Origin: Candidatus Peregrinibacteria bacterium RIFOXYA2_FULL_41_18
GTDB taxonomy: Bacteria; Patescibacteriota; Gracilibacteria; UBA1369; UBA12470
Assembly (NCBI GenBank): GCA_001788795.1
Contig: MFXH01000001.1
Coordinates: forward strand, 1 to 64,000
DNA: 64,000 nt
Direction: 5' to 3'
Shown here: piece by piece, positions 7,566-43,918 of the stretch
Layout of the letters: each line of letters starts with the position of its first letter
How positions within the stretch are numbered: position 1 is the first letter of the stretch
Notes under the pieces: generated by a model
The model's input: the letters and a program-made list of their open reading frames with translations, nothing else
Database searches by the model: none
What the model was told of the DNA's origin: nothing
Program-made: the position numbers and the translations under genes

Positions 7566-7610
7566 CACTATGTCACTTCTTCAACTTCCCCTACTTCTTC
7601 AATAACTTCC
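7566..7610 (-). repeat. Nonamer array (CTATGTCACTTC family) over the glnA stop
   Basis: The + strand reads CACTATGTCACTTC, then 9-bp units built on ACTTC (ACTTCTTCA, ACTTCCCCT, ACTTCTTCA). The glnA TGA (7599-7601) lies inside. In the gene sense the array ends GAAGTGACATAGTG. Confidence 0.85.
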
Positions 7611-24132: not shown

Positions 24133-24174
24133 TTCTGCTTTCTGTGTCTTGTGTCTTGTGTCTTGCTCTCTACT
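24133..24174 (-). repeat. Heptamer array, TCTTGTG family, over a gene stop
   Basis: The units TTCTGCT, TTCTGTG, TCTTGTG, TCTTGTG, TCTTGCT and CTCTACT run at period 7. The TAG of the 331-residue gene (24170-24172) lies inside. Confidence 0.85.
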
Positions 24175-28683: not shown

Positions 28684-29601
28684 TTATCCTATTAACCGCT
28701 CACCTGCAAATTTCGCCCCGACAGCAGTTGCATACTCGGCATTTTCAGGAACAAAAACTTCAAGTCCATATCCTTCAATAATATCCTTCACAACCGCCAA
28801 AATCGCATCAGCCTTGGTCAGTTTACCAATCAAAACGATAGAAGATAACCCTTCCGACTTGGCGGCAAAAACAGCAGAAATACCTATAGTTTGTCCTATA
28901 AGATTAACAATACCGGCGGCAAGATCCTCTTTTTTAAATTTAATCTCATCTCTAAGCCGTCCGAAATTCGAAGCCGTCGCCTCCCCCGAAACACGCCCGA
29001 TATCACCACCAACTATATCGGAAACAGAAACATCAACTTTTTTACTCGAACCTTTAGCAGCAATCTTAAGAAGCTCATCTACATCCGACACGCCCAGCAG
29101 TTCGCGCCCCAGTCCAACAAAAGTTCCCCCTCCAACCCCCGTCCCACCAATATGTTTAATAACTATGTCACTTCTTCTACTTCTGCCTTCTGCCTCATGC
29201 CTCATGCCTTCTTTCACACTAACCATGCATGTCCCAGTTCCCATACTGACGACAAGTCTATTCGAATATCGAATACCGAATTTCGAATTTCGACAACTCC
29301 CTTCTACCTCTTCTCGGCATTCGGTATTCCGTATTCCGTATTCAACCCCAATCGCATCTATCTCCGACACTTTCACTACAGGAACACCATTAACACTATC
29401 CGCAAAAAACCTGCTCTTTCCTCCGGTAACAAAAATCTTATCAACCCCACTCAAAGAAATCCCTGAAAATTCAAAAAAACTCTCAAAATTCAAAGCAGGA
29501 ACATCTTTAGACTCATAAGTCTTGATAGACTCAATCAAGTCACCATTCCACAAGACGGCATCAACAGTCGAACCGCCAAAATCAAGAGATATAACTTTCA
29601 T
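28684..29601 (-). CDS. coaW: Type II pantothenate kinase with in-frame repeat insertions
   Basis: The 305-residue Fumble/CoaW-type kinase phosphorylates pantothenate to start CoA synthesis. It has the phosphate-binding ISLDFGGSTVDAVLW, then VVSMGTGTCMVSV, GGTGVGGGTFVGLGRELLG, SIVLIGKLTKADA and AEYATAVGAKFAG. Two surface segments are built from repeats. One is YGIRNTECR...CRNSKFGIRYSN (about residues 87-114), from two CGGTATT-family heptamer arrays. The other is EGMRHEAEGRSRRSD (about 131-145), from a CATGCCT heptamer array plus a nonamer array. The core motifs are intact, so the enzyme is probably active. The gene is close to panB-panC-coaBC. Confidence 0.9.
   Translation of the reverse strand: MKVISLDFGGSTVDAVLWNGDLIESIKTYESKDVPALNFESFFEFSGISLSGVDKIFVTGGKSRFFADSVNGVPVVKVSEIDAIGVEYGIRNTECREEVEGSCRNSKFGIRYSNRLVVSMGTGTCMVSVKEGMRHEAEGRSRRSDIVIKHIGGTGVGGGTFVGLGRELLGVSDVDELLKIAAKGSSKKVDVSVSDIVGGDIGRVSGEATASNFGRLRDEIKFKKEDLAAGIVNLIGQTIGISAVFAAKSEGLSSIVLIGKLTKADAILAVVKDIIEGYGLEVFVPENAEYATAVGAKFAGERLIG
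29163..29181 (-). repeat. Nonamer-family copy inside the pantothenate kinase gene
   Basis: CTATGTCACTTCTTCTACT is identical in style to the 3'-end copies and has the same orientation relative to the gene. It is translated as part of RSRRSDIV. Confidence 0.8.
29182..29209 (-). repeat. Heptamer array, CATGCCT family, inside the pantothenate kinase gene
   Basis: The units TCTGCCT, TCTGCCT, CATGCCT and CATGCCT are in frame and give EGMRHEAEG. The same array and peptide occur at 43845-43872. Confidence 0.85.
29259..29293 (-). repeat. Heptamer array, ATTTCGA words, inside the pantothenate kinase gene
   Basis: The units TATTCGA, ATATCGA, ATACCGA, ATTTCGA and ATTTCGA are translated in frame. Confidence 0.8.
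29315..29342 (-). repeat. Heptamer array, CGGTATT family, inside the pantothenate kinase gene
   Basis: The units CGGCATT, CGGTATT, CCGTATT and CCGTATT are translated as part of EYGIRNTECR. It is nearly the same as the array at 47887-47914 after groES. Confidence 0.85.
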
Positions 29602-43552: not shown

Positions 43553-43918
43553 TTACTTTGTCAGCAAAAAATAAGTCACAGCAATTCCAATCGTAATCCC
43601 CAATATAAAAACTATCGGCAACTTCCTCTCGGTCTGTCCGTCATGCGCATTTGCCAAATCGCTCAGAAGATTCGTACTAATCACAACTTCTTCCTCGCTG
43701 TTTCTCTCAACAACATCAAGGAAACTGTGATTCGCAACCAGCTTCACAAACCTACCAAAAGTAATCTTAACCTTTCCGGCCGGCTCAATTTTCTCTTCAG
43801 CGCAAACCTCTTCGGAAGCGGGAATATCATTCTCTTTTTCACTTGTGCCTTCTGCCTCATGCCTCATGCCTTCTTCATTATCTTCATCATCTTCATCAGG
43901 GAATTTTATATCATCCAT
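43553..43918 (-). CDS. Small tail-anchored protein with repeat-derived segment
   Basis: From ATG 43918 (MDDIKFPDEDDEDNEEGMRH) the product is 121 residues. It has an acidic N-terminus and a central segment (KVKITFGRFVKLVANHSFLD). One C-terminal membrane helix (about 98-119, LPIVFILGITIGIAVTYFLL) follows. Residues about 15-24 (EGMRHEAEG) come from a CATGCCT heptamer array and are identical to a segment of the pantothenate kinase. An upstream frame to 43966 is not favoured. Function unknown. Confidence 0.68.
   Translation of the reverse strand: MDDIKFPDEDDEDNEEGMRHEAEGTSEKENDIPASEEVCAEEKIEPAGKVKITFGRFVKLVANHSFLDVVERNSEEEVVISTNLLSDLANAHDGQTERKLPIVFILGITIGIAVTYFLLTK
43845..43872 (-). repeat. Heptamer array, CATGCCT family, inside a CDS
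   Basis: The units TGTGCCT, TCTGCCT, CATGCCT and CATGCCT are followed by TCTTCAT. They are read in frame as EGMRHEAEG. Confidence 0.85.

Follow-up and report, generated by a model that had tools for sequence, protein, structure and literature searches.

The coaW gene of an uncultured Peregrinibacterium contains, at positions 29162-29343 of the window (the whole stretch of 64,000 nucleotides analysed here), three heptamer arrays and one 13-base core with a nonamer, all of which are translated in the frame of the gene. The arrays lie in two loops, are dispersed through the genome and recur, in one case as the same array, in unrelated proteins. We consider it probable, at roughly four chances in five, that the corresponding CoaW segments are species-specific dispersed composite repeats, the in-gene copies of which survive if they are stop-free, neutral in length and tolerated by the protein. 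Heptamer repeats are commonly viewed as intergenic curiosities. Here, one heptamer family can be traced from spacers into catalytic proteins, with repeat-less homologues within the same organism family, which provides a test case for the way small genomes turn non-coding repeats into protein sequence and for the spread of heptamers in bacteria.

The coaW gene and its product

The gene (28684-29601, minus strand) is an intact ORF encoding a type II pantothenate kinase (PanK), which acts in coenzyme A synthesis, of 305 residues, as assigned from family models, PDB sequences and fold. CoaW matches NF009842 with an E value of 7e-52 and 176 bits, which is under the 234-bit equivalog cut-off of that model, and the Fumble family PF03630 with 81.5 bits, above the cut-off of 28.5. 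It also matches the S. aureus and human PanK entries in the PDB in both sequence and fold, with TM scores of 0.72/0.82 against 4nb4. Glu80 is presumably the catalytic glutamate, by analogy with the known S. aureus and human enzymes. Homologues were retrieved from the genome collection with an alignment as the query, the single protein having matched nothing there or in the viral collection, and the nearest coaW relative in the named collection is from Candidatus Peregrinibacteria bacterium CG2_30_44_17.

The preliminary description held CoaW to be essential and all of its catalytic motifs to be intact, and neither statement is supported. A coaW gene was found in ten of the 89 genomes of the order, although a search of the genome carrying the window found no CoaX. 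Of the 37 columns with a conservation of 90% or more among the other homologues, CoaW retains 34, but the Gly-Gly pair right behind E-x-x-AIG, which is GG in 84 and GA in two of 87 homologues, is EY in this protein. The pair was removed by the first array (loop 1) and thus not all motifs are intact, which leaves room for a weakened function. This near-universal pair being lost, and most of the order lacking coaW, would suit a gene in decay or an error of assembly, with the arrays tolerated in a gene that is no longer used. We regard this as very unlikely: the 305-codon frame is unbroken and the other conserved columns are kept, the contig is 108 kb long and the 64 genomic copies of the core (see below) have differing flanks, and the genome, in which no CoaX was found, has a DFP-domain gene of the CoaB type (PF04127) in the window itself, at 25.3-25.8 kb. 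We infer that CoaW is made and is active.

Repeat arrays in coaW

The loop 1 segment (residues 86-116; 29254-29346, minus strand) was delimited by homologue alignment and an AlphaFold model. It runs from the helix of the catalytic glutamate (E80..AIG) to the strand VVSMGTGTC and stands in place of the xGGxxL start of the loop. An array scan located the heptamer array GAATACGGAATACGGAATACCGAATGCCGA of the CGGTATT family (29314-29343, minus strand), which has related arrays elsewhere in the genome. A purine-rich spacer, GAAGAGGTAGAAGGGAGTTG (29294-29313, minus strand), separates it from a second heptamer array, TCGAATATCGAATACCGAATTTCGAATTTCGA (29262-29293, plus strand), which by array scan, folding and complementarity is the inverse of the first and could pair with it in a hairpin. 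The two CGGTATT-family arrays reported earlier are thus present, with the correction that they form an inverted pair, the 23-nt arms of which are 83% complementary; the predicted RNA hairpin has an energy of -27 kcal/mol (z = -3.3).

The loop 2 segment (about residues 131-147; 29162-29209, minus strand) encodes the peptide EGMRHEAEGRSRRSDIV and is composed of heptamers, a nonamer and the core, ordered as in the intergenic copies. The heptamer array AGGCATGAGGCATGAGGCAGAAGGCAGAAG (29180-29209, minus strand) includes a 25-mer (29184-29208) that occurs exactly at four genome loci. The nonamer ACTTCTTCT (29170-29178) overlaps the 13-base core ACTATGTCACTTC (29162-29174, plus strand), which was followed by genome-wide exact search, and the two together occupy 29162-29179; what had been noted as a nonamer copy is part of this core, which has 64 copies. 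No hairpin was found on folding the loop 2 segment (z = -0.05). The segments measure about 48 nt (loop 2) and 82 nt (loop 1) and are built of 7-, 8- and 9-mers in varying unit number. No heptamer array of the stringency seen in coaW was found in 20 dinucleotide shuffles of the window, in agreement with the original observation of translated arrays.

The CoaW loops among homologues

Loops were compared in 87 CoaW homologues, with loop 1 measured from AIG, after the catalytic glutamate, to VSMGTGT and loop 2 from GTGTC to GGTG. Loop 1 has 32 residues against a median of 14 and is the second longest of the set; loop 2 has 26 against a median of 12 and is the fourth longest. The residues of the repeat segments are absent from all 87 homologues, so that no repeat-less protein carrying them was found in this set. 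In the AlphaFold model, which is PanK-like overall, the pLDDT falls below 50 at residues 92-111 and 135-142, inside the two segments; residues 193-217 are also low in pLDDT though they carry no array. Alignment and model together support the earlier proposal that the segments are added sequence, in surface-type loops that are modelled as disordered. Both loops are variable in length across all Peregrinibacteria compared, and the relatives available for comparing the coaW sites include none that is very close and has an empty site.

CoaW of the relative G002 has short loops and no arrays. In that of G001, one 38-nt sequence is present in both loops (identity 33/38). A reading of these two loops as degenerate heptamer arrays was rejected, the lag-7 comparison with random 38-mers giving fractions of 0.25 and 0.04; loop 2 alone stands out in a codon-shuffle test. 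The start of loop 1 in G001 carries GGATACGGAGGGG. Loop 1 of the G012 protein, of 56 residues, has an 18-nt periodicity with no relation to the heptamers. Taken with the window arrays, the 38-nt repeat and this periodicity make the two CoaW loops look repeat-accepting. In a further homologue, from G028, loop 2 contains CCAGCCCGAAGTTCTGGCGGG, a seemingly palindromic sequence and perhaps one more dispersed element, of that genome.

Dispersal of the composite repeat

The core ACTATGTCACTTC has 64 exact copies in the 1.24 Mb genome and none in any of 88 further genomes from the order, among them the two that share its family; its reversed sequence, searched as a control, has none in this genome. 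Heptamers and nonamers adjoin the core, the start of which is often a repeat of the octamer ACTATGTC, and the coaW loop 2 segment shares the module order heptamers-nonamer-core with the intergenic copies, unit numbers differing from copy to copy. The 25-mer heptamer stretch has 14 matches in all when up to three mismatches are allowed (control, 0). An inexact CGGTATT pattern with three mismatches was unspecific, matching the reversed control too. Genome scans covered about half of the genome, sampled in stretches. Over about 326 kb, 28 arrays (one of them a run of N) were found at a lag of seven bases versus 1-6 at lags of 4, 5, 6, 8, 10 and 11. Heptamer arrays numbered 36 per 646 kb in G000, 18 per 333 kb in G001, which carries heptamer families of its own, and 0 per 292 kb in G002. 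A search of Rfam gave no family match for the repeats, and a literature search for in-gene repeats of candidate phyla found nothing.

These data bear on a purely local origin, in which slippage or template switching in length-variable loops built the segments without any transfer and the likeness to sequences elsewhere reflects a shared mutational bias to units of 7 bp. Many bacteria have heptamers in excess, and these have been tied to polymerase slippage (PMC4692102, PMC4679880); the variable unit numbers and loop lengths, the unrelated 18-nt periodicity in G012 and the sequence at the start of the G001 loop 1, a possible seed of GGAATAC units, all point the same way. We nevertheless judge this origin unlikely, because slippage within coaW alone is insufficient for a non-heptameric 13-base core that recurs across the genome beside the same modules, and because simple slippage does not yield an inverted pair such as that of loop 1. 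Loop 1 by itself could have arisen by local slippage. Low-complexity heptamer matches can also come from convergence.

Other core copies in the window are at 7567, 17078, 18433, 27994, 38484, 42126 and 43987, mostly right behind stop codons and on the sense strand of the gene. (TGTGTCT)n arrays occur at 24143 and 40422 of the window and at L012:10590 and 16212, and several of them end in the recurring TGCTCCTTACCCC.

Copies in other genes

That repeats enter coding DNA, as was proposed from coaW, is borne out by in-frame copies in several other genes. The 25-base heptamer stretch is in frame in RlmD (TIGR00479, 355 bits), where it encodes GMRHEAEGRS exactly as in CoaW, at a site that corresponds to gaps in a relative of solved structure in the PDB; the stretches sampled from the relatives contained no RlmD homologue. 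A second GGCATGA/GGCAGAA heptamer array in the window, with a nonamer array (43842-43898, minus strand), lies in frame in an ORF of 124-137 residues with no family match and gives the peptide EGMRHEAEG; CoaW, RlmD and this ORF share the array and its peptide. The array is free of stops in a single sense frame, and the shared frame is therefore forced for copies in the same orientation.

Compared with relatives, the in-frame array of PurL is a clean loop insertion of about six residues, whereas those of NadC, IspE and YifB (YifB/ComM) take the place of variable loop residues. An array lies at the N-terminus of CarA and another at the C-terminus of RlmE, and DnaX has a nonamer linker. At L160:19574 and L151:4094 the gene ends run on into the repeat, giving ..EVGEVT tails, and in L160 the stop codon is a TAG belonging to the core of the repeat. 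Antisense core copies within ORFs (L014:18466 and L155:19327) encode YVTS and Thr/Ser/Pro-rich peptides; the genes concerned encode a large membrane protein and a C39-like peptidase.

Position, orientation and origin of the copies

The arrays are depleted from genes: 36 are intergenic and 12 are within ORFs, though 91% of the sequence is ORF. The number of open frames per array is 5.4 of six inside ORFs versus 3.9 in spacers, a difference that is partly expected because an array within an ORF needs at least one open frame. Arrays that survive in genes are stop-free in 4-6 of the six frames and have an in-frame net length. Heptamer arrays had been thought to keep the frame open as such, which does not hold: 7 is not divisible by 3, units of this length do not by themselves preserve the frame, and what remains is what selection has left. 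For intergenic copies flanked by genes on both sides (n = 34), a stop codon lies at the nonamer side in 27 cases and at the core side in nine (Fisher p = 2e-5). On the sense strand, 35 of 45 copies have their core close to the end of an open frame of 70 or more codons. The position after stops may be due to a function at the 3' ends of genes, to an insertion preference or to co-orientation of genes and repeats.

The dispersed composite repeat that we favour as the source of the CoaW segments would combine arrays of heptamers and of nonamers with an octamer/13-base core (sense strand, GAAGTGACATAGT), the majority of copies being in spacers, typically directly behind a stop codon, and occasional copies landing in, or growing into, genes. 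Such copies would survive where the frame used is stop-free, the total length is a multiple of three and the site is a tolerant loop or a terminus. The sequences may have been copied into coaW by ectopic recombination or gene conversion between repeats, or by a mobiliser acting in trans, probably followed by slippage in unit number. The repeats showed neither fixed element ends nor a target-site duplication or terminal inverted repeats, and no mobiliser was found, so that copying is not proven. A bolder reading, in which the 7-, 8- and 9-mer tracts form a true class of miniature mobile elements that prefers the sense orientation right after stops and repeatedly enters conserved enzymes, is tentative and on balance doubtful; if true, the elements would supply new loop and tail peptides.

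Comparison with described repeats

Rickettsia palindromic elements (RPEs), to which the coaW repeats had been likened, are palindromic elements of about 100-150 bp that make up a restricted set of families in Rickettsia (PMC10969869, PMC4316617). Both are short dispersed repeats of spacers and genes that are read in frame within unrelated metabolic genes, a given element yielding one and the same peptide in each (here in CoaW, in RlmD and in the 43.8-kb ORF), and in both cases protein function is presumed to be retained. In contrast to RPEs, the repeats of the window are tandem 7-, 8- and 9-mers of variable unit number with no fixed ends seen, the segments of about 48 and 82 nt are not discrete units of RPE size, and the palindrome is confined to the loop 1 segment, loop 2 being without a hairpin. 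With no Rfam match and with a host that by its nearest relatives is a Peregrinibacterium and not Rickettsia, it is hardly credible that the segments are RPEs or direct relatives of them, in spite of the in-frame dispersed copies, the one palindromic segment and the peptide common to unrelated proteins. The best reading is that the repeats are RPE-like in behaviour and outside the RPEs by described size, unit and lineage.

By construction, the closest described relatives are the intergenic heptamer repeats (TAACTGA, GGGAATC and STRR). The TAACTGA direct repeats of Beggiatoaceae are mostly intergenic, some over stop codons and few in ORFs (PMC4679880). As in the window, the arrays are limited to a lineage and the in-ORF copies are in the stop-free orientation, but Beggiatoaceae have one fixed heptamer, with in-ORF copies chiefly at protein ends, whereas in the window genome many heptamer families are combined with nonamers and the core, and conserved enzymes carry copies internally. 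The GGGAATC/GGGGAYT repeats of Xanthomonas and Nostoc, and the heptamer repeats of cyanobacteria such as Calothrix (PMC4692102), resemble the present arrays in their heptamer period and imperfect units, and about 90% are intergenic in Xanthomonas; they differ in that the Xanthomonas and Nostoc repeats have a G-quadruplex motif, in contrast to the varied units and composite arrays here. As in heptamer SSR or STRR-type repeats, 7-bp tandems are over-represented genome-wide in the window genome and lie mostly outside genes. The commonest heptamer doublet in the sampled genome is AAGACAC.
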